From Tubulanus polymorphus (taxonomy: Eukaryota; Nemertea; Palaeonemertea; Tubulaniformes; Tubulanidae), in the NCBI RefSeq assembly GCF_964204645.1, contig NC_134027.1, positions 11,210,485 to 11,274,484 on the forward strand: a stretch of 64,000 nucleotides of DNA, written 5' to 3'. Numbering within the stretch: position 1 is the first letter of the stretch; the number at the start of each line of letters is the position of its first letter. Under the pieces are notes generated by a model that did not search any database, had not been told where the DNA came from, and was given only the letters and a program-made list of their open reading frames with translations. The position numbers and the translations under genes are program-made. Shown one piece after another: positions 1,486 to 55,736 of the stretch.

Positions 1486-1704
1486 TCAGTCAATTTTTGC
1501 TCGTGTTTTGTTTAAACGATACCTCTCAATGCGTACGGTATATGGCATCCACTTATCATCCTGGATCCAGTTTCCAAAGTATTTCGTAAAAATCATAGGT
1601 TTGGAAACAAAATAATTTACCTTAGTCTTAAAGAAACTCCGATTTATGTAGCAAACTTGGTCCTCGTCTGCTTTTACCCACTTAGTGTACCAGGTTTTTA
1701 TCAT
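1486..1704 (-). other. Unassigned 72-codon open frame
   Basis: An ATG-started open frame rich in aromatic and basic residues (contains WYTKWVKADED and GNWIQDDKW). I do not recognise the family, see no convincing splice partner nearby, and cannot separate a real exon from a chance frame. It is listed because the surrounding 2.5 kb has no other coding candidate and the residue mix is less biased than in the repeat-derived frames around it. Confidence 0.15.
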
Positions 1705-2540
1705 CCTCTATTAGGCCATCACACAATATTTCTCCACTTGGAGCACTACTGGAGAAATTTGATTCAATATCGACTGAAAACTTGTGTGGACTGGTAGCTT
1801 TGAATGAGGAGACTTATTTTACTGCAATCGGTATGTCGGTAAGAACGAACCCTTTTATGCACCTACAGTGTTGCAGAGTTTTCGTGGCATCTGAGAGCGA
1901 TTCGTTTAGATATTGAGTGATAACTTAGGATTTGGACTGTTGGTGGAATGAGACTTTTTGACTGCAATCAGCAATTTCAGTAAGCACCCTTTGACGTGTG
2001 CCTCTGCTTGCTAACACATCAGACAATATCCAGTAATTACACAAGCTCATTTAAATATGGTAGTCAATATCCACCATCCATATCCAGCATTCCAGCATCT
2101 AAGTTCTTTGTAGTAGATATTTCAAGAGTTGAATCCCAGTAGGCATTTAAGAAACAATACTAGAAGCACAACTACCATATATTCATAGATCCATTCATTT
2201 ATTTGCGATGAAATCTTGTATCCAAAAAGCAATATCTAAACAAACCGAATGAGAAAATTTGATTAATTTCATGATGAATTGAAGGAACAAATTTCCTGCC
2301 CTCTGCACTTGATCATACATAAGTAGGTTGACGCAATTGAAAATAGTAATCTAAACGGGATCCAAATCCACGTTTCTGAGTAAAATTGGACCCTTAAGTT
2401 AAAATACTGAAAATGAACTGATTTTGAGTCAACTCCAACTATCAACTGTGGTACCGGACTCTAAAATCAGCGCCTCTCAAAGGCCGTTTATAATTCCCTT
2501 AAAAACACCATCGAAAATGTTCGACAGCTATAGCATTGTG

Positions 2541-5500
2541 CTACGTTGATGAATTCTTTGTCAACAGTTTAGCTTTCAACAATGAAGTTTTAATATCCTT
2601 TTCCCATTGTTTTCGATACATCGTGTACAATCTCATGGTTGCTTGCGCATCGGTGACCTGTGAAAAAAATAAAATACTTGATGCAGGTACCAATTTGTAG
2701 CCTGGACTCAACCCCTTAGGTGTTTGGCATCAATTTTAAATCATTCGGCAGAATGTCTGGTAGACTGATATTTATCTCAGTATTTCAGATTTAATGGGCA
2801 AAACCCACAGTTGATGATATAACGATTCATTTTCTGACTGTTTCGAAGTTTTGATTAAAATTTATAATCAGAGAATTCAACAGAATCATGAACAAAAAAC
2901 TACAAATGAACTACAAACTACACAATCAAATAAGCAGATAAAATCATCATGTACGATGGTAAGCTTATTCATAAAAATTGCCTTGAATCTGAAATTTCCT
3001 AGTCCATTTTTGAGGAAGCAGTCCAAATTCCATGATTTTCCATGCAGGGAATATCGAAATCTTTGATCCAGTGGCACTGTTCTTAGTTAAGATTTCAGCC
3101 GAGAGTAAAAATATTGAAAACTAACTAATCTAATCCCTGGTTTTCTCCGAGCTGTGGGAACCCTGCAACTGCGGAAAATACAGAGATTGCATCGTCACTT
3201 ACCGAACTATGTTCTCCCCCTTGAACCTCGACTCCCAACAGTTTTTGAGAGAGAGTTTTAAGCGAAGGCGTTCGTCCGCCATTGAGTTTACTGAACGGTT
3301 TGTAGGTCGACGTATCGCGTATCATTTTTCTCGGATGATCATAATAAAGCACCTACACATGAAATAATAAACGTCATAGAAAAGAAATAGAAAATGTTAT
3401 TTCAATAAGTTGAAGCATGGTGATCATTTTTCTTGGTTAACCTGTTCACTACCATAAGTGACTGAAATTTCGGCCGCCAATTTTACCTATTGTCAATCAT
3501 TGTGACTGATATTTCAGTCGGCTGTATATGACCTGTAACTGAATGCAAGTACAGCACAGCACACTACCATAGGTGTTTATTGATTCTCAGAAGACTGTAT
3601 GCTTTCATTATAGTTCATTATACATGCATCATCAAAAATAAGCTAACGCCATCTGGTACAGGGCATGCACGATTATCTAGGAGTTAAGAAAGGGTTAAAG
3701 TACCTTGAAATCGTTATGTATAGCGTGTCCGACAACTATTCTGCCTTTTAGAAGGGAATGGACATTTTTCTGGACTGTTTGAAATGAAGGCGCTGTAATT
3801 GATAATAGATGCATAAAACATGTTATTAATGTACTAGATCAAACTACACAAATCGAAAACGATTTCTTCGAATTGCCACGACAGTTTACCATCTTTAAGA
3901 TCTTGCGCGCGAACTCCACTGACCCAGGTTCGGTAATCAGTAACGTTTTCGATAGATTTGACGAACGTGTCATAAATGCATTGTCCGTATTGATTGACTA
4001 TCGACACTCGTGCTAAGTTGCTTTCGCGACCTTTTTCACCGACTCCCACCATCTCGCAATCTATAGCTACTACTTTCGTTAACCTATCCAAAAGAGAATT
4101 ATTCACCTCATTTCAAAATTAGTTAAGTTTTGCTCGTATTAAAGTTTGATTTCTTGCTATTCTTGCTAACCTATCCAAAAAATTATAGGCCACATTTCAA
4201 GTTATGTCTGCATTGGAATTTGATTTTTTCTGACTGATTAATAAATATAAATCAACAAAATCCAAAATCATGATATGTCTAATGAAAATCCACAATTTCA
4301 ATTAGAATGTTTCCCCCGCTCTAATGTTTCAAACTGACCCAAAGGAACAAACACAGAGGGTGAAGATTAAGAAATGTCATAATACAATCGACTTCGTCAG
4401 TGTCTGCTAATTCGTCATTCTGGCTTAATTGTCATTTTTCTTCGAGAATGGATAAAAGCTTCGTTATTTCCTTAATGATTCTGTGCTTAATTCATCATTT
4501 TGCTTTAATCGACACTATTTTGCCGGTTCATTAGTAAAAAAGGTTCAAAGGATATATATGATCCTTTTTGGCCTACCCTTTATGTGAATTCTCCTTCACT
4601 AAACGATCTTTTGAAGAGCTGGCTTCTGGTACTTGTTTTGGCTTTATACTGTCTAGTAATATTTCATCGACATCATCAAACCAAATGTCTGGCTCACTGA
4701 AAAATTATTCATGTTAAAGATGATATTCACAGAAAGAGGCACAATTTCATTTCGGGAACTATTTATGTCGTTTGAGCAGATCTAATGCTGCCGGGTTGAG
4801 GAGCTGCTTACGGTAGCTCTCTAGTACGCAGCACGGTCTCAACATTTTTTCGCGATTAAAATCTATTTGTAATCTTTTTGAATTCAATGACAATAAATGA
4901 AGATTGAAATCTGTGCCACATTTGAACCTTAAAGATCGATCTGAACAATTCATTAACCCTTTCAGTGCTGGCTAATTAATACCCTATAGCGCTGAATTTG
5001 AAAATTCTGAAAAATTCCACCCTAGTGTGTTGAATAACGGGAATACCACTATAGTGTGTCTACACCGCGGCGCAGTGTATCGTTAGTTACTAATATTTCA
5101 CTATGTTTGACAGGTGCTGCATCTTTCAAGAGAGATAATTAGTAATTACTGATTAAATCAATACACCGCAGTGCGGTGTACTAGCAAAATCCATCACTGA
5201 TTCGTACACCGCACTGCGGTGTAGATGCACTGAAAGGGTTAAATAGATGTTTTATTTACCTAATTTTTCTAGGCCTATGTAAAAACTAAAAATCTAGATG
5301 TAAGTTTAATTATCTTGATCAGCTAAGCCTGACAATTCAGTACTGACATCTATTCCATGAAATGACTTCCATTATCCATAAATGCTATGAACCACTTGAC
5401 CTGTACTTATTCAATCATACTTAGGAATTATACCTTGATTCGACTGTTTTAGTATCAAATTTCGACTTCGAGACTTCCTTCTTGGATTTTGCTTTCTTCT

Positions 5501-6182
5501 TTTTGTCGCCAGTGCCCAAAGTCTGAAAAGGATTCATTTCAAATAGAAAGAATGGAAGAAATTGGCAACGATTTTGTTGTGAACCCGCAATTAACGCATC
5601 TAGGATGGAATCACCACATTAGACATTCACTTAAGATAGCAATAATCACTTTTCGAAATTTCGGCAATTAAAGCTTTGAAGATATAATCAAGTAGGAAAA
5701 ATTACGATTGATTATTCAGAAGGCCTATTTAGTGAGTTATTATCATTATCATTATTATCTGAAAGGGTTGGTTCAGGCGGCGGATTCAAAGCCGCACAAA
5801 CGGCTTACCATAGGCAAACAAACGGCTTACATACCTTGAGAAGTTTTTTCCAATTTGCCGACACTTCTTGGATGGATTTCGGAAGAGGATTACCCGAATT
5901 CGTCTTCTTTTTGGTGTTTTCAGCAGCTTTCAAATCGTCATCAACGGTCCTTTTTTCAACGGTCGTAGGAATGTCATTTTTCGGTATCACTTTTTTAACT
6001 TTCAATTTCTTGCGTATTTTAATTTTTTTGCCTACGAAAGTATTCGCTTTCAGAGATTTTTTGCTACTCCTGGCATCATTATTATCAGGACTTTTACTGC
6101 TTATCTCACTCCCTGAAAGTTTGAGTTTTTTGCTCACCGCTACCGGTAATTCAGTGTTTGGATGTTTACGTTTCTGTCCCAT
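2541..6182 (-). CDS. REXO4: RNA exonuclease 4 (REXO4), DEDDh 3'-5' exonuclease
   Basis: Family role: a nucleolar 3'-5' RNA exonuclease related to yeast Rex4, involved in pre-rRNA processing. Exons in transcript order: 5835-6182, 5434-5522, 4577-4696, 3890-4083, 3704-3792, 3203-3352, 2541-2657. They total 1107 bases (368 aa) with matching phases at every junction. Residues 1-145 are a lysine-rich nuclear or nucleolar tail. A conserved WFDDVD motif (exon 3) leads into the exonuclease fold from about residue 186. Catalytic residues are visible: D and E in [11 protein letters not shown] in [11 protein letters not shown], and the H-x4-D of the DEDDh class in EHSSVTDAQA, formed across the last junction. 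RPSL-like and DYRT motifs also match the family. The start is the only in-frame ATG before the basic tail (MGQKRKHPN). Human REXO4 is about 420 aa, so this one is slightly short at the N-terminus but complete in the catalytic domain. The gene is convergent with nothing visible on its left. Confidence 0.93.
4957..5238. mobile_element. piggyBac-like MITE, copy 1 (TTAA target site)
   Basis: This 282-bp element lies in REXO4 intron 2. Its terminal inverted repeats read CCCTTTCAGTGC and GCACTGAAAGGG, and it is flanked on both sides by TTAA (4953-4956 and 5239-5242), the target duplication expected of the piggyBac superfamily. The interior carries two almost identical palindromes (acaccgcactgcggtgta type) near 5162-5223. 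There is no coding capacity. Two more copies occur at 37015-37267 and 59989-60272. Confidence 0.75.
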
Positions 6183-6289
6183 TTTATTGATTATATCTGT
6201 AAGAAAGACACGTCATACCAGTAGAATTGAAATTAGGCTATATGCATAACAAAACCTCAGTACGGAGCACAAGTCAATAAACCAGGCTG

Positions 6290-6535
6290 GACTTTTATTC
6301 AGTTTAGTTTAGAAGATTTTTACATCCCAACTGCAATTAGTTACAGTGTAACCCAAGGGTCTTAATAGATGGCCAGGGCCTTTTTATAGGTTGTTATGGC
6401 TCACAACCTGACTAAGTTAGCAGAGCTTAGTCCATGTATGTGTCTCGACAGCCAACACCAGAGGTGGTTTCGAACTAGGGACCTCTCGGTTCTCAGTCCT
6501 CCACTCAACCAACTGAGCTAACTGCACAGGACTGC
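6290..6535 (-). mobile_element. tRNA-derived SINE
   Basis: Read on the minus strand, 6509-6520 gives a good pol III A box (TAGCTCAGTTGG) and about 6466-6475 a good B box (AGTTCGAAACC), separated by about 40 bases as in a tRNA gene. The flanks do not pair into an acceptor stem and the sequence runs on into an unrelated tail, so this is a SINE head rather than a functional tRNA. The tail boundary near 6290 is approximate. Confidence 0.6.
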
Positions 6536-7280
6536 ATAGACCAGATATTTTTCATTTTCATGAACTACAATCTTTTATATCAATAAACCATGGTTAGAGA
6601 CCTAATCATTGGTGGTGAGCTTCATTAATCCACAGGGGCTCGACTTAGGGTCTAACTGCAGTTTGGCTAGTGTATTAAAGAATGGTCGGTTTAAAAGTGC
6701 AGATCTGCACCGCTCGTGATTGATACAAATTACTGAATTACAAATCACTGTTCTAGCTTCAGAATGTCTCACTGAATCCAATGCAGTGATATATTTCATG
6801 ATATTTTCACTAGAAAGTAGATTTTTGGCCCGGTTTTTATCTAAGAACTGTGACGATCTTTCAATAGGACGCCATATTGGATTGGGAAATCTTAGGTGAA
6901 GATTTGCAGAAACGATGTGAGGGTAATCAGTGCACAAAACTAATCACATTTTTGGCAACAGCCACTGGGATTATTAATGCTCCCTAGCCACATTGTCTGA
7001 TGTTTGTTGAACTTCAGAAGAAATCTTATTTTTCTTCCTCAAATTGAGTGTTTCAGGAAACATTGTTTCAACAAATATTCTAAACAAATCTTCACTTTAG
7101 ATACACCCATCCAATATGGCGTCAGGTTAAAAAATTGTGATCTTGAGACAAAATCCAGGCTAAAAAACTACTTTCTAGTGAAAATTTCATAAGATAAACC
7201 ACTGTACTGAATTGCTGATGACATCTTGATTCTAAAACAGTGATATCTAAAATGTAATTGATTGAACCATTTACGAGAGG

Positions 7281-23102: not shown

Positions 23103-34480
<11,378 letters not shown>

Positions 34481-36758: not shown

Positions 36759-39700
36759 ATGGCTGACGAATTAGACGTCGAAGCTATGCTGGAAGCTCCG
36801 TACAGAAAAGAGGTAATGTCTTCAACTGGATTAAACTGTAATGTTCTTTTGATAGCGTATATTTGTTATTAAGTACCCATACCTGTATGTTTATGAAATG
36901 ATGAACAACGACAATTCTTCCGGGTAAATGATATATTTCGGGGGGTTAATTGGATTAAACGAGGATGGTAGTACTGTGTTATTGCAAATAAGCACTTTCT
37001 AGCAATTGTTTTAACCCTTTCAGTGCGTTAGTATAAATCAGTGATAGATTTTGCTATTACAACACACTGCAGTGTATTGATGTAATTGGTAATTAGTAAT
37101 TATCTCTCTTGAAAAATGGCAGCACCTGTCAAACACAGTGAAATACCACCGCGATGTACACGCACTGTAGTGGTATTCCCGTTATTCAACACACTAGGGT
37201 GGAATTTTTGTTTAATTTTCAAATTATCCAGCACTATAGGGTATTAATTAATCAGCACTGAAAGGGTTTAAGTCAATCTGTTTTGAAATCCTAATTTTGT
37301 GGAATGATTAGCCATTGTTATTCGCAAAGGATGTTTTATTCCGGTAAGTATTAAAAAGCCCCGACAAAATAATCAGTGAAATTATGTCTATGAGTGATCG
37401 GACAGTTTGGCGGTGGCCACCGGCGGGGAGGGGGGCAGCAAATAACGTAAAAGCTACATGTGTCCCATTTTGTTCTATCTTAGATACGAAATACATGTAG
37501 TTACAGCTTCTCTGGCTATCCAAGACCAGGTCATCGAGTCTAGAAAAGGTAGACATTCATCCGATTGGTATTATTAACATCTCCGACTTTTAAAAGTCGT
37601 TCGTATAGTCACTCGTCAAACGAGAGAGAAAGAAAAAAAAGCTATTTTCGGTTTGCTTTAAGTCTGGTTGTGTGTACTACAGGAATTGCATGGATTATGA
37701 AAATTACATATTTAAACAATCAATTGTATAACGATAATTTACGATGTTGTTTGGATATTAACGGGAAAAAAAAATTTATTGTTAATCAAACATGTACAAA
37801 CGAAATGAATTCTATATATTTGATTTTTGCTTATTGATTAAATATATTTAACGGAATTAGAATTGTTCAGATGTGTGATTTTAAAAAAAAACAACAAAAA
37901 CCAATTTAGGAATCTTTTCGAATTTTGCGACTGTATCACTTGTGCACTTAAAATCGGTACTGAATATTGTCCATCCTGTCTCGTACCAGGGTCACCCATT
38001 TGATGCAGTCGGTTATGGAAGAATGGTTACCTACACCATCGTAGGCTGAACTACCGGACGGGATTTGCGCACGACAGTGGATTATTGTGCTACGTGTACC
38101 TTAGAACTCTGCCTTTCCCAGCTATCCATTTATTGGCAGTGATTTTAGCTTAAAAGTGTTGTCGGAAAGGTACAATTAAACTGATTTTAAGTCAGGATAG
38201 TGGCCTGTCGAGTGGCCCTCCCATAGTTCTTCTTTTTCAGGTCGCGAATTAATAAAAGGTACCGCCTCGAAGTATGACCCGTGTACTATTTTATGTCATT
38301 TCTCAATCATCAGTTGTTTCACGCAAATTTCGGCGACCAAATTCTTAGTTTTCTTTAAGCGACAGTTTCTGTTCTGAAGGGATATGTGCATGATTAAGAA
38401 ATGACGCATGATATCGTCTCAGGTTATCCTGTCGATTAGTTGACGCCCGGCTCTTTATTTTCGGTTCAAATATTACATAAATTAATTCCTGTCTGGGTCT
38501 CGTCTCGATTTTGATCGAAACCGTTTGAAAATTGAAACATTTCTATGATTAGTTAAGAAGTGGTGAAAAGTTAGTTTTGAATTCGAACTTGCGAGGTGGA
38601 GTCATTCTTTTCGAGCGAAAGCGCAGACCGTAGTTGGTATTCATTTATGGTAATATGCGCTATCCAGAATAACAATTAGAAACACGTCACTATCCTGTCC
38701 CTCCTGGCCCAGTCGCCCCTTACATATATTCATATGTAGCCTAATTCTTAGTACTATTCCAACTGTCGGCTGCTGACACGTACGGCTGGCTCCGTGTGTT
38801 TTCAGGTAACAAGTTGTAAGCTAGTATAATGTGCGAATATTTCGATAAAATAGAACTAATGGCGAATGTTGTTGTTTCTTTTCTTTCCCCTTTTGTTTTT
38901 TCGACCCGCATCTCCGGCGCTGTGTGTGTACGTCGTACATGTGTGTTCGGTGTGTGCTACTACTACTACTGCTACTACTGCTACTCATAACTGTGGTGTC
39001 ACTTATTTTGGAATGGCAGGATGAAATCAAGAATGGCAAAGACAAGGGCAGCAGTCGCGATAAAGACCGCGACAGAGACCGAGATCGGAAGTAAGTTTCA
39101 AATAATTCGTTCTCCTTTATTTTGAGCCTTAATAGTCTTGATATTCAATAATTGTAAGCACTGTCATCGGACAGGCATGTTCATTAGGGGCGTTGAATAT
39201 TGAAATGGTCAAATCGTCTAGCTTTTCAGATCACTTCCCAAGTGAGCATGTTGTCCCTGGACGTCTGGTTATCAGGGAAAGTTGGGGACATTTCTTGAAT
39301 ATAATTAGGGAAGAGTCAGGGAATTTGAGATCGCTAGATTGCGCCTAAAATCAAACAATTTCTGTATGTTTTACATATTTGACAGTGGTAATTGATTGGA
39401 TTCATATCAGATCAAGGCAGGAAAAACAACATGCATGTTTAGGGAATAGTCAGGGGAAAAAGCAAGTCAAATAAAAGTGGCCACCCTGTCATTTTGTTTT
39501 CATATCCTACATAGAAGTATATTCAATAAACTTTCAGAAGACGCAGCCGAAGCCGCGATCGAAAGAGATCGCGATCACGAGAAAGGAAAGATCGCGGCGA
39601 GAGGGATCGCGATCGACGCGACAGAGATCGAGACCGACCGCGGGATAAGGATCGAGACAGCAGACGGAAGAGGAGTCGTTCGCGCAGTCGCGACAAACGC

Positions 39701-41473
39701 AGCCGACGCAGTAGATCGCCGTCGTTTAATCGGCCGCCGCGTAGATCGCGTTCGAAATCTCCGTACGGTGGAGCTGGCGGCGGTGCTGGTGCTGGTGGCG
39801 CCGGTGCTGGTCCGCCTGCTTGGAAGAATAAGAAGAGGAGTCCTTCGCCAAACAGGTATTAAACATTATGTTTTAGTTAGTCGTGACCTAGTCATCCGGT
39901 GTTGAGCTGAACACCTTTGCTGCCACTGTGATATTATGATATTACATAGCCTTTGCTCAAAATTGACCATCGAGAATGAAGCAGAGTTTCTTTACACCGC
40001 CTGCCAATCAGAAACAATAAATCTGGCATGCCAGGGTGTCAATATTTGACAGTGAAGGGTCCGCTACAAGCATACTCATAGTAGTAGTACTTAATGCAAC
40101 TGGGCCAGTTGTGTGTGGAGAAAGGACGTTAAGTCCCGGAAGGGCGATTCAATTGTCTTTAAAAAAAGGAATCAAGTAATGCTCGTTTGGGTATATATTA
40201 TTTCCTTGTATGTGGAATGGCAGTTATAATCTGGCTTAGTGTTGCACACAGCACGAGAAAAATTCCTAACGGCTGTTTGCATAAATATTGTTGAATAATG
40301 TTGTTAAATTTGTTTTCTTGCAGCCGAGAATTCGCAAACCAACCTTATGGTTCTATGCGTTTGACCAGGTAAATTTTTGATTTTCTATGTCGAGCTAGCC
40401 CTATTTTATGAGATTAATTGGGTTGATGCCATTTTTAACTTTTTAACTCGTGTATTTTAGAAACAATCTACCGGAGTTGACTCCTGAGGAGCGCGATGCG
40501 CGAACAGTTTTTTGCATGCAGTTGCCATCGAGTATTCGTCCTCGTGATATTGAAGCATTCTTCTCATCAGTCGGAAAGGTGAGAGATTTGGAGAGAGATT
40601 TTTAAATTCACAACCAACTATGAAATATATCGTACTTTCAGTTCTGTTGTTTCCTCGAGTTATCTCGTAGCGGATAGGCCTTCTTATTCCATCACTGTTG
40701 CATATGCATGTTATGACATCATGGGCGAAATTCAGTTTTCATAGTCGACTAAAGGTCGGAACTAACTGAATGACTTAAGTTTGGTCGTAGCGTATTTGAC
40801 AGTGTTGCCATCTTGGAACTGCGCCCGAACTACAGAAATTCGTCCATTTCCGCACCATAATTCCGACTAATTGAAATTTTGTTTCATTTAGTTTGACTAT
40901 AGTCGACTAACTCCGATAACTGAAGTTTGCCATGGCTGCTGAAGTAGCAAGACTTTCAATCCCTCAAAAAGATAGGGAAAATTAACCTCAATTTTGGCTA
41001 TTCTTCTATTTCTGGTAGGGGCGGCAGATATTTTATAAGGGGTGGGTGGAAAAATGGATGGTATTGTCGCCCCTCTCAAACCTATCGAGAGTACACTGCT
41101 AAGAGGTGATATGCGTGAACTTTAATCCAACGTTTTATTTCAGGTTCGAGACGTGCGAATTATCACGGATAACAAAACGAGACGATCGAAAGGCATCGCG
41201 TACGTCGAATTCGCCGAGTGCGAATCGGTGGCGCTCGCGCTCGGTTTGAACGGTCAGCCGTTGAAGGGCAAACCGATCACCGTTCAGGCGTCTCAGGCTG
41301 AGAAAAATCGCACCGGCAATCCGACGGCCATCTTGCCGGGGATGGATCACAAAGGACCGATGCGATTGTACGTCGGCTCTTTGCACTTCAATATCACCGA
41401 AGAAATGCTCAGGGGTATATTCGAACCTTTTGGAAAGGTGAGATTTCTGATTAAACTGATATTTGATTTCCAC

Positions 41474-41570
<97 letters not shown>

Positions 41571-44425
41571 GTTTATATTATATTATTTGATATGTATAAT
41601 TTCACCTAAAATTTACGCGATATCTTTTAGATCGATCACATAAACTTAGTTATGGACAGTGAGAGTGGCAGATCAAAAGGATTTGGATTTGTTACAGTAA
41701 GTAGGCCTATATTTGTTGTAATCATGTTGTAATTTTTGGGTTAAAATCTGTGTAAGACAACGGGTTTCGATCTACGGAATAAAAACCACTTGTCTGAAAA
41801 TCTTGCCCTACGCAAACACAGTCCAATTGGTGGCACAATCATCTGTTGTATCGAGTGAAAAAAAGCTTTGATACTTAAAGTTGCACTAGCCTGATGGATA
41901 AGTGATGATGATAACCTATTTATCCTAATGAGAACGTGCTTGTCCCGGGCAATGGAACAAGTGCTTGGATCGGACCCTGCCACAAATGTATTAAGTCCTG
42001 TTTTAACTACACGTATTATCATTATCATATTGAAGTGTGTTAATTTGATGTTCTATGTACAGTTCCAGACAGCGGATGATGCGAAGAAGGCTCTTGAACA
42101 GTTGAACGGTTTTGAGTTGGCCGGACGACCAATGAAAGTCGGTCACGTAACGGAGCGGACAGCTGATACCCAGGGCGCGGCAATGCTGGACAGCGACGAG
42201 ATGGATCGAGCTGGTATCGATCTCGGCGCTACTGGTCGACTGGCTCTTATGGCGAAACTAGCTGAAGGTAATTTTGCAAAAAGATCTTAGTATCCTTGTG
42301 GATGCAATGCATGGCCAAACATAGTAATAGTAATTAAATTTCTATAGTGCCCTTTTCACTTTAGAATGGTCAATGGCGCTTTTCATTAAATCGGTAAAAG
42401 TTAAGCCAAACCAAATTTGTATTCAAATTCAATTTGCTGAGTGTTAAGTTGACATTGATTGGATAAGTTAGTCAACACATTCATGGTCTCATCTAAAATG
42501 ACTGAAGCGATTTTGACTAAATGAGATTAGTTCATCATGAGTGGAACGACAATGAGTCATTCAGTCATGAACAGTTCATTCTCAAATCAACTTGAATAGA
42601 ATTTTGAGCCTCGCAGATGCTCACTTGCTACAAGCGGAAGCCTCGACTGCCACGGAATTTTATTCTCTCAACCGGCTTAATCGTGAACTTGTTTATAATT
42701 TTTAGGTACGGGATTTGAAATTCCGCCGGTAGCCGCTAATGCGTTGAGTTTGACTCAACCGACGGAAGCAGCGCCACCAGTTCCTCAACAGGCTGCAGTG
42801 ACTACCGCGCCACCCATAGCTACACAATGTTTTATGCTATCGAACATGTTTAATCCAGTTACGTAAGTATTCCCTGCTTCGTTGTTTAAAGACGAACACT
42901 AACTTGAAAGTAAATCGACGCCTTGAAAAATATGTATTTTGCAAATATTGTCGACAATTTATGTGGATTTGAATATATAGATAATTGAAATGATTGGCAA
43001 CCAGTCTAGCCGGGATAGTGCACATCTCTCAAATATAATAACATTGAAATTTATCGAAAATGAAACAGGAGTTATGAAATATATTTAATTACAAAAGACG
43101 TTAAAAAAAGACTTTGTTGTTTTAGCACTGCAGTACACTTCAGATACATAGCCTCTCATGGCTGATTTCGAAATCTAGAATATGTTGGGGAGTCTTGTGA
43201 AGGGCATATAATTCCTAGGAATTTTTGAATTTCAGAAAGTTTACAATGCACCAGATTATAAAGATGTGCCAATCCTTCTTACTAGTCATGACCAGAATCT
43301 CAATAATTTGCCACTCTAGCCATTTAGGCTGATTGATAACGAGCAGATTTTCGCAATCGGGAATCCATAATTTTGGTGTCGCAGATATCCGAGGGTTGAT
43401 AGTTAGTGATGCACAGTTAAATAGAAATCTCAAATCTCATTTGTAGGGAATCGGAGCCCGGCTGGGATCAGGAAATCAAAGATGACGTAATCAATGAGTG
43501 CAACAAACACGGTGGAGTCTTTCACATATACGTCGACAAAACTTCACCGACAGGCAATGTCTACGTTAAATGTCCGAGTATAGCCGCGGCTGTCGCCTCG
43601 GTGCAAGCGCTTCACGGTCGATTTTTTGCAAGTACGTATTTTACCATTTAACGTTTACTTTACATCCGCACGTGGCCCATGTCCAATTTAGCACAGTCAA
43701 ACTCGCTTAATCCATATTTTGGTCTAGTCCGGACAATATTTGCGGTGCCTGTGTACATTAATATGTAAGAAAATGGCACGTATTTCCTGTGAACCGGATG
43801 AATTTAGTTGGTCCGAAATGATCTGAATTAAGCAGATTCTACTAAAGTTAAAATTTGCAATACAAATTGGGATTAAAAATATGGCCAATTGAATTCGAAA
43901 TATACATATGAAGACCAGAAAGTAATGACGTCTGAAGTGATGTGATTATTTATTTGATTATGACTTAACCCGGATTTAACTGTAGTGACAACTCAAATAA
44001 TGTGACAAACTTATACCGTGTAATTCACTTTATTCTCGGATCAGTTATATTTGGATTTTCATTTATTTCGGATTAAAATTCCAGTCCCCTATTGGTTATT
44101 TCTATTCAAATGAAAGCACGTTTAATTCGCACAAAATTTTCCAGTCCGAGGTGATCCGAATTAAGCAAGGTCTACCGTGTACCGATTTCAACTGTTTAGC
44201 AACATCGTTTATATGGTTTTATTTCTTTTTTTTTCGCTAGGGAAAGTGATTACGGCGGCGTACGTTCCGTTGCCGAACTACCACCAGTTGTTCCCCGATG
44301 CTCAGGTCGCGCGTTCGCTGTTGATGTCGTCGGCGCAGCACCAAGCGCAGTTACAATACGCGTCGCAGTACGGCGCCGCCGCCGGTATGATGGGAGCCAT
44401 GCAGCAGGGTTTGCTGCCTCCGTGA
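36759..44425 (+). CDS. RBM39: RNA-binding protein 39 (RBM39/CAPER), SR-like splicing factor
   Basis: A nuclear splicing factor and transcriptional coactivator related to U2AF65. Exons: 36759-36812, 39020-39090, 39538-39855, 40324-40368, 40461-40578, 41144-41437, 41631-41696, 42063-42267, 42706-42862, 43447-43631, 44241-44425. They total 1698 bases (565 aa) with all phases matching; human RBM39 is about 530 aa. The N-terminus MADELDVEAMLEAPY is diagnostic of the family. Residues 19-160 form an RS/RD-rich region with a Gly/Ala-rich insert. RRM1 starts near 176 (TVFCMQLPSSI), RRM2 near 275 (MRLYVGSLHFNI) and the C-terminal UHM-type RRM near 436 (NKHGGVFHIYVDK, GNVYVKCPSIAAAVA). The LDSDE, ATGRLALMAKLAEG and TQCFMLSNMFNP segments match. 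The tail after VPLPNYHQLFPDA is a Gln/Ala/Met-rich extension. Possible poly(A) signals AATAAA occur near 44729 and at 45486-45491. Confidence 0.96.
37015..37267. mobile_element. piggyBac-like MITE, copy 2
   Basis: A 253-bp element in RBM39 intron 1 with ends ccctttcagtgc and gcactgaaaggg, flanked by TTAA at 37011-37014 and 37268-37271. The internal palindromes are partly eroded compared with copy 1 and the interior runs in the opposite orientation. Confidence 0.7.
39235..39492. repeat. Truncated AGGGTGGCCAC-family repeat
   Basis: In RBM39 intron 2, ending in aaaagtggccaccctgtc just before exon 3, with tcagggaaa-type interior phrases; the left terminal repeat is missing. Confidence 0.45.
41480..41569. 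repeat. (AT)n microsatellite, about 90 bases
   Basis: Nearly uninterrupted AT repeats with a single break near 41511, in the RBM39 intron between the exons that encode the two halves of RRM2. Confidence 0.97.
41745..41925. repeat. Dispersed repeat shared with 48755-48955
   Basis: The shared order gatctanggaataaaa, cttgccctac, ggtggcacaatc, gtatcgagtg, gatgataacc is found in both copies in the same orientation. This one is in an RBM39 intron. No coding capacity; possibly a SINE body, family unknown. Confidence 0.55.
43690..44182. repeat. pogo/Tigger-like repeat fragments in the last RBM39 intron
   Basis: 43690-43850 starts cagtcaaactcgcttaatcc and ends ttaagcagattctac, a TIR pair related to 9680-9865. 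A second degraded piece at about 44030-44182 repeats the aattaagcaaggtctac ending. Both are non-coding. Confidence 0.45.
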
Positions 44426-46970: not shown

Positions 46971-47024
46971 CTCTGAAACATTGTTCCCAAAACTACTAAT
47001 TAGTTTCTGCTTCACAATAATTAT

Positions 47025-47025
47025 A

Positions 47026-47107
<82 letters not shown>
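47025..47107. repeat. (AT)n microsatellite, about 80 bases
   Basis: Continuous AT repeats with one tg interruption near 47041, about 55 bases after the hAT-like MITE. Confidence 0.97.
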
Positions 47108-47110
<3 letters not shown>

Positions 47111-47756
47111 GCGATGGGCTTAGGATCATCTTTTCTTAGCTTGGATTTTATATCCGGGTTGTTGATTATCTCGTGAGACGGCGCTAAATATGAACTGCAA
47201 ATAAATTCAAGATATCTCAGAAATACCTTGTGTTTATGTTGTTTATTTATCCGCTATAAAAGTTCCGATAAACAATTGGCCGTTAAGGTTCATTATCAGG
47301 CGGTCGCGACGCTTTACTTTATAAAAACACTGTTTTTAGCGGATAACTAAACAATATCAACTCAAGGCATATTAGCGCCATTCTCGGAAATAAAATCCAA
47401 GCGATGAAAGACGATCCAAGCCCATGGTCAAACCCGTGCAAGGAATCCGAGAATTTCTGTGTCGCGTGCATAGGAAGCAGAAACATAGTTTTGGGAACAA
47501 TGTCGGCAAACCCCTGTGACCCCTTGTTATCGACATACGCATCAGGGCTTCGAGTATCACAATGGGATACGGGCAACGATACAGCGTCGTGGCAAGCGAA
47601 GATTCAGCGATAACCCACCCGGCACTCAAGTTGCATTGCGTTTATCGCGCTTCAATTTCGCTCTGCATTTCTATTAAATTCTAATCTATTTTTCTCATTA
47701 GTAAATTTTCAGCCAAATCTGTAGGCGACCCTTGGCTGAGTGAGAAAGCGGATCTT

Positions 47757-48186
47757 AAGGCCCGGACACACTGGGCGATTTGGTCGCCCGATTTCGTCGC
47801 CCGACGAAATCGCCGGTAAAATCGCCCAGTGTGTCCAGGCAATCGCCTTCGGCGATTTAGTCGGCCGACGAAATCGCCCGAATCCAACATGTTGGATTCT
47901 GTCGCCGGCGATTTCGTCGCCGGCGACAGAATCGCCCAGTGTGTCCGGGTACGGTGATCAGTCGCCTGGAGCGCCGTATTAACCAGCCAATCACGGCTCT
48001 TTGATTTATTAAAGGTGGCGCTAGCAGCTGGTCGTTTCAAAATAAGCGGCGCTGTTCGCCGATTTCGTCGCCGACGAAATCGCCCAGTGTGTCCGGGTCT
48101 GTCGGCGATCAAATCGGTCATAAAATCGGCGGCGATTTCGTCAGCCGATTTCGTCGGCCGACGAAATCGCCCAGTGTGTCCGCGGC
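47757..48186. mobile_element. GC-rich palindromic MITE cluster
   Basis: Four occurrences of cgcccagtgtgtcc or its complement (ggacacactgggcg) punctuate this stretch. Between them are dense self-complementary phrases such as gatttcgtcgcc, gtcggccgacgaaatcgcc and tcgccggcgacagaatcgcc. The block is much richer in GC than its surroundings. The outer ends (gcccggacacactgggcg and cgcccagtgtgtccgcggc) are inverted repeats, so it may be one element with nested copies or two adjacent copies (about 47757-47952 and 48056-48186). A fragment with acacactgggcgaattt is seen near 56811. Confidence 0.65.
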
Positions 48187-48754
48187 TTTATATCTATCCG
48201 ATGACCTGTCTGATAATTTTCGTATGTGGAAGCCTAAAAATCAAGTTCTAATTTCATTGCAAATGAAATGATTTTCGCTATGAGTTACTCTGTGTTTTGT
48301 TGCGCTACCGTATCTGGTGTTGCCCATATCCCAATGTATATCCACAAACCTCAGGTACTCGCGGATGTGTATCAGCTTGGTATACAGTTCCACTACGGAT
48401 TTTGATAATGTGTGTTTTAAATGGTTCTGCAATAAATCAGAAAAATTGTTTTGTTTCTTAAAAAGACATGGCTGCCGGCTCCGGACACATCAGGAAATAT
48501 TGACAAACTTCACTTTTCAATGTAAAATTCAAACGTTATAGGCCTCTATGACACTCACTTGTGATATGACGCTGGTATATCCTAATATTACCATATATAT
48601 CGCTTGTGTGACACTTATCATATTTGTCGAATCATCATCTAGTACCCTTGTGATATAGCCTAATAGACATCGTTTGTTGACCTAGTGTTACTGTTTGAAA
48701 GCCTGTGTCACAATCAGATGTAATAATAGGATATGGGATATGATAATATGGGTT

Positions 48755-49174: not shown

Positions 49175-49364
49175 AGATATTACGGTAAATTAATTTTATT
49201 TCAGTATTGTTATCTTTTTGATGAAGATCGACGAATTCTTCAAGTAATTCAATCAACCTTTTGATGAGCCACCAGTAGACAGTCAAACCTAGCCACTGAT
49301 TCTGTGATCATCTGAAACTAGGTTTATTATAATTGATAAATTTTGTTATTACAGAGACACGATC

Positions 49365-52300
49365 ATGGTTTCACAAGTGATAGCTAAATCAATTTCCATG
49401 GGTCGGAACGCTGCGTTACCTCAACAAGGTCGGTAAAATAGAATGAACCTTATTGCACTGTAAATTACTGGTACCTTGGAAACATTCAAGCTGGTACCAA
49501 ACAGACATTCGCTGTTGTCATTACTGCTAAAAATTAGGCTTATAGGTCGTTCAGGTACTGTTGTTTTGGAAGGCTATTTATAAATGTTTCTGTTCTATTT
49601 TTAGTATCGCGTGTGTTTTCGACCTGTCGATTACTAAATAATCCTACTAGTAATGTAGACACTTGGAAGGTTCACCAGAACAAGACTTCGTTAGTCATAT
49701 TCGACAAAGATGGAACGCTTCTATGTTACCATTCTTTATGGATACCGTGGGCACGAAGTTTAGCGAAAAGGTGTGTATATGTGAACCATTCATCTGTGCA
49801 GGGTCCTTACGACTCTTTGATTCTTAAAAAAAACTACTTCTAAATGGAAAATGTTTTCAAGGGTGCTTGAAACTCATTTAATTGGAGCACTTGAAAATTC
49901 CTTCAATTTTTAGAAATAGGCAATCGGATAGGCCTACCTGTACTTTAGAATTTGTACAGACTATGCCTAAATCGGTGCATTTGGGACCAGAATCTCTTTA
50001 TTTCCTGTAAAGCATAACAATATATAAATTTAAAAACTCGATATCCAGGAATAATTGATTTGTAATGTAGTGACCTTGAATAATTGATTTGTAATGTAGC
50101 GACCTTGTTGTAACGTCGTCCTTAATTATCGTTCCGTATTTATATAGGTTACAGGATATGACCGGCATGCGAGTCGCCGACAAAGTGTACAAGACATTAG
50201 GCATCTGCAGCGTCACGGATAAAATATCGCCGGGATTATTAACCGAGTGTTCGCCGGAGGTTATACGCAGCTCGTTGGTGAACATGCTCAACCAAGAAGG
50301 CGTTCATTATACCGCGGCGAAAAACATCGTCGACACCGAATGGCGCACGTGCAATCCGGAGAATCCGAAACAACTCCGCACGCTCGACGATTTATCGACG
50401 ATATTCTCGACGTTGCACGATTACGGCGTGAAAACGGCGGTGTGCACCGAGGACACGCGCCAGGGCACCGTAACGGCGTTGCGCACGCTCGGCATCAGCC
50501 AGTACGTCGATAAAATCGTCTGCGGCGACGACAAGACCGCGTTGCCGAAACCATCGCCGCACAACGTTCTGATGATCTGCGACGCGTTGAACGTCGCGCC
50601 CGCCGAAACGGCCATCGTCGGCGATCGCAAAGTCGACATGGCGATGGGAATCGCGGCGAATCTCGGCACGCGGATCGGCGTGTTGACCGGCGTCGGCAAC
50701 GTCGATGACTTGACGCCGTACGCGCACCACATCGTCGGCAGCGTCGAGGAGATTTTGCCGATCGTTTTGCCGGTGTTGAAGAGTGGCGACGCGGACGCCG
50801 CGCATTCACCGGCGCCAGTGATGAGGGACGTCGACGACGAGGATCGTCACCCGCTCGTGCAGAAATACGGCAAAAAGAAATGGGAACTCGTCATATTCGA
50901 TAAGGACGGTACATTGATATGTTTCCATTCGATGTGGGCGCCGTGGGCCATCGAATTCGCTCGGAGGTAAGCGCGTACTATTTCTACTTACTGTTTGTCA
51001 CCCATGCTTCTCCATGCGATGTTTGGATCTGTGATTTCATTAATAATCAGTTGATCTGCGTAGAATACAGTGAAACCTCGTTAATATGATTCTGTTAAAG
51101 ACAAAACCGGTTTATACGATGATTTCCAGCATGTCCCAGTTAAGATATTTGTTATCAATCAAGCTTTGGATAATACAAAACCAGTTTAGAATGTAACAAT
51201 GGATCTGCGTAACGTGGATCAATTTTCAGCATTGCACGCGAGCGTGTCGAGTAGATTAATGCTGATGAATGAAAGCAAACACAAGTTTACGAAAAATCGT
51301 TGTTCATTATTTCTGAATAAAAAAGTCTTTTTGAACAAATTAATGCATAATAAAAAAGGTAGATCAACTGATTATTAACAAAATTACAGATTGAGAAATG
51401 ACAGACAGTAGGGGGTCGACTTCTTGCTGTATTTTCAGGCAAATAAGTCATGGTCAGAATTTTTGCCTTGAAATAATGGATTTCATAAAGCTTTGCCACT
51501 CAAAAACCCGATGCCCTTCATCAGAGTTCGATTACATCGATTTGTCGATTTATTTGTTTTAATTGACGATGTAAGAGGCTGTTGAACAACAGCACACCAG
51601 TAAGCTGTGTGAGCGTGGTGCTGTTAGATAATGGCATAGGCATACTGTGTGATTTCCTAGTGGTTTTACTATCCGTTTGATTCATTTAGATTCGCTCATT
51701 GAATATGCTATTACGATACATTACAATACACATAAACATATATTGTGACAGCTATATAGGCAGTATAACAGCTTATCCACAGGCTGTTGTGTACAAATGT
51801 GTTACATTGTGTAGCACCTAGCTGATGAAACAAAGTAACAACCTTGCTAAGGCCAAAAAAAGATAAAGATAAGCCTGTCCGGCCAGATGCGAAAATCTTG
51901 GGCTTAGAGAGCGGGTAAAATAAAACCTACCTGTCGGGTGACTAAAAATTAGTTCTTCGTTTATGAAAATGAAATGAAAACTGTTCGGGCGAGTAGTGTC
52001 GGAAAAGGTCTTCTTGTCATTCCTTTTCATGTAATGGGGTTCGAACTTACTGGTACTAGGGGTCACAAGTTTGGCAACAAAGTTGAAGCAATACTTCGAG
52101 TTAAACATTGTTGTGTCAGATGAATTCATCAGACAAAAGTACATGAAATGTGGTGTAGTTGTGTGTGAAATTGGACACGGACACCAAAGACCTGTCTACC
52201 TTGGTCCTTGGTGTCAATCTAACAACATTATGAAGACTGTAAGAGACGTTTTTGACAATGTTATCAGTGGGAACTGATTTTGCGGTTCTGGTGTGAGTGA

Positions 52301-55300
52301 ATGCCCGCACCCCTCTTTGCAAAATTTGTTAAAACTTGGGATCTAAGCTTTTAAAAGAAAGGTTTGCTTCCAAATATTTATATTAGTAATAGAACTGCCT
52401 GCCTGTTCGATATTTCCAAAAATTCATGTTTTTTTAAATGAATGAAAATAAAAACCCGCTTGCCGGGTCATTTTTAGGGATTTCGAAAAAATGAGAAACA
52501 AGGTATCAGTTTTTTTGGGCCCTATTTGTAGTTAATAATGATTTCAAATTGCTATGGAACTGTTGTCACCTACGTTGAACGAAAATCACTGGTTCCATTC
52601 GATTCGAGTTGGGAAGCGTGTACTCTAACTTTCGGTTAAATTGATAGTCATCATATGGAAACATAACAAACATTATCGAATGATTTCAGAATGGAAAAGA
52701 TAAGCCAGCTGAAAGTCTCCGACAAGGTTTTGGACGTGCTCGGCGTCGATAAAGTTACCGAAACCATCAAACCGGGCGTATTCGCCGAAGGCACAACTGG
52801 TCAGGTGGAATCTCGCTTGGCCGATTTGTTAGTGGAACAGGGTTTATCTAGGGAAGACGCTCGATCGGTTGTAAAACAGGTAAGCTGAGATTGTTTCTGA
52901 ATGAGAACTCGGACGTGCCTCAAGCTAGTGCCTGACGGTAGGATTTCATTGATGAACCCCCTTACGAAATTGAAAATGCTTTTTAAGGAGCTCGAAACTC
53001 CTTTAATTTGATCAAAATTCACCAAAACTCGGTGAATCTGAAAATTAGAAATTTTTATCTAGTTTGTTGTTTGACAGTAGGATACCCCTGAATTGAATAG
53101 TTGGGACCTCAATTTTTTTACCCAATTTGGTAGGTACCAGATTAGAAACCAAGTTTAGGTAGCATATAGGATAAAAATTAGCTTACAAAACCACTGAATT
53201 AATCATTAACTGAGAAAGTAGTACCTATTTAGGAGGAGTCAGCTGTGTTTGGGATATGAAAGCGATGCAGACACTCCTCAAAATTTGAAATTTTCTCCTT
53301 AAAAACTCCTTAAATCCAGGAATGACTGATCTGTATGGATCCTATCGTAATAACGTTTATTACATTGGATTAACTGTCGTTACTGCTTTTGTATCCTAGG
53401 TTCAAGACATGCAACAGTCGGATAAACATCAAAAGGAGAGTTTAAAGTCAATCGGCGACACGAGCGACTTGTTCTGTCTGCTGAAGGAGAACGGCGTGAA
53501 GATCGCCGTGTGCACGGCGGACAGTCGCGACAGTTCGACGGAAACGCTGAAACGACTCGGCGCGTTGCAGTACGTCGACATGCTCGTCTGCGGCGACGAC
53601 GAGAACACGCGGCCGAAACCGCAGCCGCACAACGCGTTGAAAATCTGCAAAGAACTCGGCGTCGAGCCGGCCGACGCGATCATGGTCGGCGACACAAAAG
53701 CCGACATGGGCATGGGACGCTCGGCGAAACTGGGCGCGACGGTCGGCGTGCTCAGCGGCGTGGCGTCGACGCGTGAATTGCGCAAACACGCCGATATCGT
53801 CGTGCCGACGATCGAGGAGTTAGTGCATCTGATTTTACCCGATTTGAAAGATGACAATTCGGATGATACGGATAATAATACGACGAAGTGTGTCGAAGAC
53901 GAACAAGAGACTCCGACACCTACACCGTCGCCGCCGAGTGGATATTCGCCGACAAACAATGACGACCGAAGCAGAACCGCCGAAGCGCGGAGATTATTTT
54001 CAACATCGACGCATCCGGTTTTTTACTCGCATCAACACGGACGTTCTTATTCGACAGCAGCGGCCGCTACTCAGGTAAACAAACGCCAATACAAATATAT
54101 CATAGTCGGGGCGGGTAGTGCCGGTTGCGTGTTGGCCAATCGCTTGTCCGCCGACGAAAACAACGAAGTTCTCGTCGTCGAAGCCGGACCTGAGGATGAC
54201 GCGTGGACCATACACATGCCGGCGGCGCTTATGTATAATCTTTGCCACGACAAGTTCAACTGGTATTACCACACCGTACCTCAGCCGTTCATGAACGACC
54301 GCAGCATGTACTGGCCGCGTGGGCGGGTGTTGGGCGGCTCGTCGTGTTTGAACGCGATGGTCTACATACGCGGCCACGCGTTCGACTACGATCGCTGGGA
54401 AAAAGAGGGCGCCGCGAATTGGTCGTACGCCGATTGCTTGCCGTATTTTCGTAAATCGCAAACGCATGAACTCGGCGCCGACGAATATCGCGGCGGTGAC
54501 GGGCCGCTTCACGTGTCGCGTGGCCGTTCGAAAAATCCGTTGTTCGACGCGTTCATTGAAGCTGGGCAACAAGCCGGGTATCCGTACACCGACGATATGA
54601 ACGGCTACCAGCAGGAGGGCTTCGGTCGGATGGACATGACTATTCACCGCGGCCAGCGTTGGAGCGCGTCGATGGGCTATCTTCGCCCGGTGCTCTATCG
54701 AAAGAATTTGACGACGGAAGTAAAAGCTTTGACTAAGCGCATCCTATTTGAGGGAAATCGCGCCATAGGCATTGAATACGAAAAAAATGGCCGCACCGAA
54801 CAGGTGTACAGCGAGGAGGTCATCCTGTCCGGCGGGGCGATTAATTCACCTCAGTTGTTGATGTTGTCGGGCGTCGGAAATGCCGACGAGTTGAAAGCGT
54901 TGGACATTCCCATCGTCCAGCACTTGCCGGGCGTCGGCGAAAATTTACAAGACCACCTAGAGATTTACGTTCAACAGGAATGCAAACAGCCAATCACTTT
55001 GTATTCGGCTCAGTGGAAATTCCCGCACAACATGGTGAACATCGGGTATGAATATTTCACCCGTAAGACGGGCGACGGCGCATCGGCGCACCTCGAAGCC
55101 GGCGGCTTCGTGCGGAGTCGCGCCGGCATCGCGCACCCCGACGTCCAGTACCACTTCCTGCCGTCGACGGTGAACGACCACGGACGCGTGATGGGCGACC
55201 GCCACGCGTATCAAGTCCACGTCGGGCCGATGCGCGCGACCAGTCGAGGCAACTTGAAGCTGAAGTCGCGCGACCCCGCCGATCACCCGGTAATCGATCC

Positions 55301-55736
55301 GAAATATCTGTCGACAGACATCGACCGGTGGGAGATGCGCAATTGCGTTCGTCTGTCGCTCGAGTTGCACGAGCAGCGGGCGTTCGACGCGTACCGTGGT
55401 CGCCTGTTGAATCCGAACCCGTCGGATCTGTCGGACGCCGCAATCGACGACTACGTGCGTCGTTACGCCGACAGCGCGTATCATCCGTCGTGCACGTGCA
55501 AAATGGGCGACGAGTCTGACCCGATGGCCGTTACCGACAGCGAAACGCGTGTCCTCGGCACGCAGGGGTTGCGGGTCGTCGACGCGTCGATAATGCCGTC
55601 GGTCGTCAGCGGCAATTTGAACGGCCCGACGATTATGGTCGCCGAAAAATCGGCCGATATCATACTCGGCAAGTCGGCGTTGCCGAAATCGAAGGTCCGC
55701 GTTTACGTGCCGAAAACGCTAGAAACCCAGAGATGA
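49365..55736 (+). CDS. Tandem HAD phosphatase-HAD phosphatase-choline dehydrogenase fusion
   Basis: A 1191-aa three-domain protein. Exons: 49365-49428, 49605-49770, 50148-50966, 52690-52879, 53400-55736; they total 3576 bases, all phases match and no stops interrupt. Residues 1-40 look like a mitochondrial presequence (no acidic residues; RVFSTCRLL). HAD domain 1 spans about 52-285 and HAD domain 2 about 322-560. Both keep FDKDGT, the motif II threonine (VCTEDT, VCTADS), the KP lysine and the GDxxxD acidic motif. Residues about 641-1191 are a full GMC flavoenzyme: FAD-binding VGAGSAGCVLANRL, GGSSCLNAMVYIRG, catalytic-region YHPSCTCKMG and VSGNLNGPTIMVAEK. The C-terminus (VPKTLETQR) matches vertebrate CHDH closely. 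CHDH oxidises choline to betaine aldehyde in mitochondria; the HAD substrates are unknown. Continuity is supported by one uninterrupted exon (53400-55736) that holds both the end of HAD 2 and all of the dehydrogenase. It could still be processed into separate proteins. Confidence 0.9.
49605..50860 (+). other. HAD domain 1 of the fusion protein
   Basis: Encoded by coding exon 2 and most of exon 3. Motif I is VIFDKDGTLLCYH (nucleophile and acid/base aspartates both present), followed by a helical cap insertion of the subfamily I type. Next come VCTEDTRQGTV (motif II), LPKPSPHN (motif III lysine) and VGDRKVDMAMG (motif IV). The layout resembles phosphoglycolate-phosphatase-like HADs, notably bacterial ones with a DGT...W.PWA motif. 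Substrate cannot be inferred. It appears catalytically intact. Confidence 0.85.
49790..50110. repeat. 430-base dispersed repeat, reverse orientation, in fusion-gene intron 2
   Basis: Begins gcagggtccttacgactctt, the inverse of the right end of the copies in HELLS introns, and contains aaactcatttaattggagca and agactatgcctaaatc. Two 25-base direct repeats (ataattgatttgtaatgtag) occur at its right end. Confidence 0.45.
51064..51215. repeat. pogo/Tigger-like MITE fragment in fusion-gene intron 3
   Basis: Begins tacagtgaaacctcgttaata and contains acgatgatttcca and aaaaccagtttagaatgta; it resembles the start of Tigger-type elements. The right terminal repeat is not clear. Confidence 0.35.
52900..53345. 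repeat. 430-base dispersed repeat, reverse orientation, in fusion-gene intron 4
   Basis: Contains cttacgaaattgaaaatgct, aactcctttaatttgatcaaaa and gatatgaaagcgatgcagaca, matching the reverse complement of the HELLS and DHODH intron copies; non-coding. Confidence 0.45.
53980..55736 (+). other. Choline dehydrogenase (GMC) domain with presequence-like linker
   Basis: After an acidic, low-complexity linker (DDNSDDTDNN, then PTPTPSPPSGYSP) there is a basic, Ser/Thr-rich stretch, RRLFSTSTHPVFYSHQHGRS, followed by YSTAAAATQ (about residues 611-635). It looks like a mitochondrial presequence and lies where that of a stand-alone CHDH would be. The FAD-binding GMC fold follows directly (YIIVGAGSAG). 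The domain is about 550 residues, the same as bacterial BetA and the mature animal enzyme, and it is free of introns here. Third-codon positions are visibly GC-rich. Confidence 0.88.

Follow-up and report, generated by a model that had tools for sequence, protein, structure and literature searches.

The closest described systems to the gene considered here are mitochondrial precursors that carry more than one enzyme. ACAD10, studied in mouse tissue and human cells, is made as a mitochondrial precursor of ~130 kDa which is reported to be cut into separate proteins at two internal sites matching the consensus of the mitochondrial processing peptidase (MPP), likely by MPP itself (PMC11342911). 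The yeast Arg5,6 precursor likewise holds two enzymes that are separated by MPP at an internal site, and an Arg at position −2 or −3 is named as a feature of MPP sites, both in a review (PMC8835746). Engineered MPP linkers, including RGGGRRAFST in double copy, are described as freeing enzymes from polyproteins in E. coli and in yeast mitochondria (PMC10450427). The gene described here lies on the + strand at 49365–55736 of a 64,000 nt stretch of the Tubulanus polymorphus genome (contig NC_134027.1), referred to below as the window. It joins two HAD hydrolase domains (HAD1 and HAD2) to a choline dehydrogenase (CHDH) in a single reading frame.

Gene structure and domain content

Five exons with GT-AG borders join in frame to encode a protein of 1191 aa and 131.9 kDa. 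The domain order within this one frame, namely presequence, HAD1, HAD2, linker and CHDH, is confirmed. A Pfam search of the whole protein, in which 15 families were matched at E ≤ 0.1, returned two HAD hydrolase stretches as well as both domains, N and C, that make up a GMC oxidoreductase. Exon 1 (49365–49428) supplies the start codon and the first part of a mitochondrial-type presequence and is the least certain of the five, since its donor (GTCGGT, score 1.93) is weak and the frame is kept with several alternative donors as well; an in-frame stop lies upstream of its ATG at 49305. Exon 2 (49605–49770) encodes the end of the presequence (RVF/ST, aa 24–28, the slash marking the putative cut) and motif I of HAD1 (FDKDGT, aa 54). 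Exon 3 (50148–50966) encodes the remainder of HAD1 (T177, K211, GDxxxD at 235–240), a 28-aa spacer and motif I of HAD2 (aa 327), and exon 4 (52690–52879) the cap region of HAD2. Exon 5 (53400–55736) encodes the second half of HAD2 (T452, K486, GDxxxD at 510–515), the linker, all of CHDH and the stop codon.

A preliminary description of the locus had proposed a five-exon single frame with two intact HAD domains and a full-length CHDH, the last exon by itself holding the C-terminal half of HAD2 and the whole of CHDH. Each of these points was borne out: the exons join as described, all catalytic residues could be located in both HAD domains, the CHDH profile cut-offs given below were passed over the whole enzyme, and the 2337 bases of exon 5 form a single open frame of 778 aa. 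The presence of HAD2 and CHDH in one exon, far inside a large contig (C3, ~11.26 Mb), also bears on whether two unrelated genes could have been joined in error during assembly or annotation. Such a join is extremely improbable and was rejected; the junction is spanned by one exon and nothing was found in favour of it.

HAD1 (49694–50787 spliced, aa 52–290) and HAD2 (50872–53855 spliced, aa 319–565), both on the + strand, are 42 % identical to each other, and PF00702, PF13419 and PF13242 each match two stretches of the whole protein. The motif set DxD, T, K and GDxxxD is complete in both (D55, D57, T177, K211, D236 and D240 in HAD1; D328, D330, T452, K486, D511 and D515 in HAD2). Between motifs I and II, which are 114 residues apart in HAD1 and 116 in HAD2, lies a cap that we take to be of the C1 type. 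In each domain an intron (in HAD2 the first one) interrupts, in an identical phase, the codon for an Arg that lies 23 residues past motif I. Because the interrupted codons are homologous, HAD2 is read as a tandem copy of HAD1 that kept its intron.

Both domains pass the TIGR01549 HAD-IA cut-off of 23.3 (25.7 for HAD1, 42.3 for HAD2). No substrate-specific NCBIfam cut-off was reached by the whole HAD domains among the best 25 of 28 families for HAD1 and the best 25 of 35 for HAD2. Scores of the whole HAD1 and HAD2 domains were 49.3 and 56.4 bits against the 180 of TIGR01449 (bacterial phosphoglycolate phosphatase), and 52.6 and 60.9 bits against the 218 of PpaX (PRK13288). For TIGR01452, the eukaryotic PGP/pyridoxal phosphatase family, HAD1 scored 24.4 bits against 201.95, and the family is absent among the best 25 of 35 for HAD2. 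Membership of the phosphoglycolate phosphatases, considered as a candidate assignment, was rejected; the cut-off was missed with partial HAD pieces and again with whole domains.

The CHDH domain (54069–55733, + strand, aa 637–1191) scores 813.9 bits against PRK02106, easily above the cut-off of 605, and 737.3 bits against the TIGR01810 betA equivalog, a narrow pass of the cut-off of 732.1. It is ~52 % identical to enterobacterial BetA and 59 % identical to the BetA of Indioceanicola (from a plasmid collection). GAGSAG at aa 650, YHPSCTCKMG (containing H1108) and GNLNGPT align with the active-site regions of PDB 9lq0; the H of the second motif and the N of the third are presumably the catalytic residues. 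Judged from their sequences, the CHDH part and both HAD domains look intact.

Searches of the whole assembly (267.8 Mb in 77 contigs, an assembly that may be incomplete; only the best candidates were scored) with CHDH as query found no second CHDH besides two short weak matches on contig C1 (43 and 53 % identity, E = 1e-9 and 4e-7). These were rejected as a stand-alone CHDH, since both belong to a multi-exon gene for a different type of GMC oxidoreductase. A query with the C-terminal half of HAD2 returned HAD2 and HAD1 only, with no other HAD of the same kind. Viral contigs held no relatives of the HAD part or of the CHDH part, which is uninformative.

The GMC oxidoreductase gene of the other type (G000:C1:3441500-3451400, locus L020, ~1600–6830, minus strand) encodes a hydrophobic N-terminal segment. 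It directly adjoins, in the same orientation, a gene for a BHMT-like homocysteine methyltransferase, the match to which is barely above the cut-off. These neighbours are possibly another betaine-linked pairing, or a chance one.

The junction between HAD2 and CHDH

The linker between the two enzymes (53856–54068, + strand, aa 566–636) is acidic over aa 566–608 (net −7) and then basic and free of D/E over aa 609–636 (net +3), directly before CHDH. Its 213 bases are open in frame without a stop, for which the chance from base composition is 0.034–0.041. When codons were scored with a table derived from the remainder of the same gene, 0 of 3000 intergenic pieces reached the score of the linker. 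The linker can also be read without a stop in the +1 frame, for which the score is only slightly lower (0.074 per codon against 0.124), and this counts against reading much into the result; the linker alone is thus modest evidence. The weight for the fusion rests on the intact domains on either side sharing one frame.

The linker contains no poly(A) signal and no in-frame ATG; the ATG at 53712, inside HAD2, is followed in frame only by that at 54216, which falls within the FAD domain of CHDH. As the FAD motif at 54108 precedes this next ATG, translation of a complete CHDH cannot begin in exon 5 alone and requires either the frame upstream or a hidden 5′ exon. The latter would correspond to two neighbouring genes with partly shared sequence: CHDH would be made, wholly or in part, from a separate transcript whose hidden 5′ exon is joined to the linker by splicing, while HAD-HAD transcripts end or splice elsewhere. 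The linker does hold a donor-like site, CAG/GTAAAC at 54074, with a fair score of 3.58 (the four used donors score 1.93–7.16), and three acceptor-like sites with a pyrimidine fraction of 0.60–0.65; alternative transcripts may thus occur. A separate CHDH would also require a presequence of the kind that the linker retains. However, the linker is codon-biased and open in frame, and lacks both a poly(A) signal and an in-frame ATG. Its acceptor-like sites are less pyrimidine-rich than three of the four used acceptors (0.70–0.75), although the fourth has 0.50, so that this last point is weak. Taken with these observations, the two-gene arrangement is considered quite unlikely.

Presequence and putative processing sites

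The N-terminal presequence (aa 1–39) has a net charge of +4, contains no D/E and carries RVF/ST; its aa 1–21 rest on the uncertain exon 1. Two putative MPP-type sites, recognized as sequence motifs, lie on the + strand in the basic part of the linker: RLF/S within RRLFST (53991–54002, aa 611–614) and RSY/S within GRSYST (54042–54053, aa 628–631). In the 1191 aa the motif R-x-[FY]-S has exactly three occurrences; one is in the N-terminal presequence and two are in the linker, whereas the folded domains have none. Shuffling gives a mean of 0.26 occurrences, and at least three at P = 0.0026. The longer form R-x-[FY]-S-T is shared by the presequence site and both linker sites, a result found in 0 of 20000 shuffles. 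The segment aa 609–636 of the linker may be a buried mitochondrial cleavage signal.

Several observations weigh against this interpretation. The longer motif was picked from the same data, which makes its shuffle result post hoc, and the looser R-x-[FYL]-[SA] has further occurrences within folded domains, at aa 72 and aa 1100. In a crude presequence score, with windows kept >15 residues apart, linker aa 628–651 rank 4th and aa 609–632 rank 6th, while ranks 1, 2 and 5 are taken by windows of folded CHDH and rank 3 by the N-terminal presequence. Shuffling reproduces the longest stretch free of acidic residues, 56 aa that lie partly inside CHDH, in 276 of 5000 trials, and this length is therefore unremarkable by itself.

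On balance it is probable, with moderate confidence, that the gene encodes one mitochondrial precursor which is cut by MPP into HAD-HAD and CHDH, the presequence-like linker segment deriving from a formerly stand-alone CHDH. Cleavage is favoured since ACAD10, Arg5,6 and the synthetic MPP linkers are precedents that are reported to be cut. One gene would give rise to one precursor composed of presequence, HAD1, HAD2, acidic spacer, presequence-like segment and choline dehydrogenase. The presequence would take this precursor into the matrix and be removed by MPP at RVF/ST (aa 26/27), and the linker would be cut at RLF/ST (613/614), at RSY/ST (630/631) or at both. The predicted products are an HAD-HAD phosphatase of 64–66 kDa and a CHDH of 63–65 kDa, which would be released in equal amounts. 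Such a gene could have originated when an intron-free stand-alone CHDH with its presequence landed in frame behind an HAD gene.

The preliminary description had expected a product of roughly 130 kDa and overlooked the presequence-like segment of the linker. The linker sites predict cleavage to products of 63–66 kDa; a 130 kDa band may consequently be absent even if the fusion is real. Alternatively, the protein may stay whole in mitochondria as one 130 kDa enzyme with three functions, the proximity of HAD1 and HAD2 allowing them to supply or regulate CHDH, and the linker presequence may be an uncut fossil. The same single frame would serve such an enzyme, the long acidic spacer could tether active domains, and the presequence score of the linker is moderate only. 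However, two intact R-x-[FY]-S sites in the linker, with none of that type in the folded domains, argue against it, as do the close precedents in which such sites are reported to be cut. An uncut enzyme is therefore judged unlikely, and the cleaved precursor is preferred.

Bacterial relatives of the HAD domains and their gene neighbourhoods

A scan of genome contigs returned 14 distant prokaryote HAD relatives, the best of them in a Chloroflexota record. A search of 298 genomes of the same class found HAD matches in 86 at E ≤ 1e-10, and 51 of the matches span nearly the whole domain. These Chloroflexota-class HADs are the closest relatives found; identity, measured for 12 loci, is 31–39 % across almost the full domain. 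Those closest to both window domains (loci L033–L041 and L047) differ from them in being single-domain, stand-alone proteins of ~250 aa. In a tree of 56 HADs (unrooted, drawn with midpoint), the window pair forms one clade (100/99), and a fork with 99/96 unites the pair with ten Chloroflexota-class HADs.

Gene neighbourhoods of up to 16.7 kb were taken around 40 of the top 42 HAD matches, two at contig ends being left out. As control, the start of contig 1, up to 16.7 kb, was taken from each of the same 40 genomes; many of the contigs are shorter, and the totals are 495 kb (HAD) and 477 kb (control). The neighbour queries were 12 proteins from five of the HAD loci; families are shown for ten, and the other two, an additional corrinoid protein and an additional DMGDH-like protein, were assigned by eye. 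The classes counted were MttB-type, corrinoid, pterin-binding, RACo, DMGDH-type, GcvT, Rieske and sarcosine-oxidase-type. Neighbours of these methylamine/betaine-demethylation types are present at 9 of 40 HAD loci against 0 of 40 controls (Fisher 0.0024), and at 4 of 35 against 0 of 40 when the five source loci are removed (0.043).

Within the tree the association is concentrated near the window pair: six of the ten HADs of the nearest clade have such neighbours, against 3 of 30 others (Fisher 0.003). Without the source loci the figures are 2/6 and 2/29 (0.13), and five of the six loci belong to one subclade and are thus not independent events. The neighbours in the nearest clade are MttB/corrinoid or Rieske/GcvT/DMGDH-type genes, and all are named by family and not by substrate; a Rieske protein scores 227 against the GbcA cut-off of 670, and MttB proteins 344 and 348 against the trimethylamine cut-off of 525. 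MttB is present in 0–8 copies per genome (14 genomes), so that a chance meeting with the HAD would be infrequent but possible. Taken together, the gene context suggests a role in quaternary-amine or one-carbon metabolism without singling out phosphocholine.

At four of the Chloroflexota-class loci (L037, L038, L039 and L041) a small protein of ~110–140 aa, with an NSYAR motif near its start, is encoded immediately 5′ of the HAD gene. The protein from L038, which was compared with NCBIfam, had no match at E ≤ 1e-20.

The preliminary description had suggested dephosphorylation of a choline-containing phosphate, phosphocholine being the one named for assay, as a step feeding choline oxidation to betaine. 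The fusion itself suggests a common pathway, and some of the bacterial HAD relatives adjoin quaternary-amine-type genes. A broader quaternary-amine/one-carbon link has support from gene context. However, PF06888, which we take to be the Pfam family of the phosphocholine phosphatase PHOSPHO1, is not among the 15 Pfam families matched at E ≤ 0.1. A GMC match of some kind is present in 8 of 20 Chloroflexota-class genomes that carry this HAD, but a near-full-length CHDH match (52 %) in only one, on a contig other than that of its HAD; choline oxidation is thus not a usual companion of the HAD. A CHDH search of nine prokaryote genomes with distant HADs, run without a positive control, gave no match and shows little. 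Hydrolysis of phosphocholine by the HAD domains, to supply choline to CHDH, is accordingly regarded as improbable. Within the cleaved-precursor scheme, the HAD pair probably acts on some phosphorylated metabolite of mitochondrial choline/betaine one-carbon metabolism.

Other features of the window and assembly

Upstream of the gene, 39535–44425 of the window (+ strand) contains likely exons, one with an RRM domain, which presumably belong to a gene resembling that of the splicing factor RBM39. An exon at 25558–25770 (− strand) reads like an SNF2-type helicase, HELLS-like by eye, though this short piece is without a Pfam match. A GC-rich stretch at 47700–48190, with scattered CGATTTCGTCGCC-like words and several frames open on both strands, is a local repeat by its look, and a (TA)43 tract lies near it at 47022–47107. 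Elsewhere in the assembly, ten homeoboxes in one orientation span ~316 kb (G000:C6:5318228-5634765), apparently a Hox cluster; the query carried a Lox5-type tail, and the best match reaches the last of its 67 residues. This is consistent with the lophotrochozoan origin that the preliminary description assumed without evidence, but does not prove it. Searches for mollusc haemocyanin (PF14830) and for COX1, made to place the animal, gave no match and are uninformative.

Comparison with known systems

No report of an HAD-CHDH fusion was found, by title or abstract opening, in the open-access literature searched, nor was CHDH found there as the product of an MPP-processed polyprotein. The separate domains are known; for two HADs and CHDH in one frame, the known precedents are mitochondrial polyproteins and HAD-dehydrogenase fusions. 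Tentatively, it may be that the gene encodes a natural MPP-cut polyprotein that provides the only CHDH of the animal together with a tandem HAD that would be an unrecognized enzyme of choline/betaine one-carbon metabolism, and that the nearest bacterial relatives found for this HAD would serve corrinoid- or folate-dependent demethylation of quaternary amines.

Betaine is a main osmolyte of many marine invertebrates. If the interpretation is correct, betaine synthesis in an animal would be tied at the gene level to a phosphatase, and a hidden step or control of betaine metabolism would become testable. It would also illustrate how a cleavable presequence on the downstream protein can make the fusion of two genes tolerable. 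Annotation by the CHDH domain alone would overlook both phosphatases.

To our knowledge CHDH/BetA is known only as a stand-alone enzyme. No CHDH length was found in a report on Crassostrea hongkongensis (PMC11702833). The CHDH domain described here resembles the stand-alone enzyme as a full-length domain above the betA equivalog cut-off, and differs in being the third module of a larger frame, within one exon. Arg5,6 acts in arginine synthesis, and its enzymes are unrelated to HAD or CHDH. The engineered linker RGGGRRAFST resembles RRLFST (plus RSYST) of the window linker, with double sites in both; the engineered linkers are synthetic and intended for yeast and E. coli expression (PMC10450427). 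ACAD10 is similar in combining an N-terminal HAD domain and a C-terminal dehydrogenase in a mitochondrial precursor of ~130 kDa, its processing being reported and that of the window protein being predicted. The HAD domain of ACAD10 is single, with an incomplete DxD and negligible phosphatase activity (PMC11342911), whereas two HADs with complete motifs are present here. ACAD10 further includes a kinase and an acyl-CoA dehydrogenase, neither of which (kinase as APH) is among the 15 Pfam matches of the window protein; in their place it has a GMC choline dehydrogenase and no kinase. Should the predicted processing hold, the gene would thus represent a second HAD-plus-dehydrogenase mitochondrial precursor beside ACAD10, and would suggest a repeated origin of such polyproteins.

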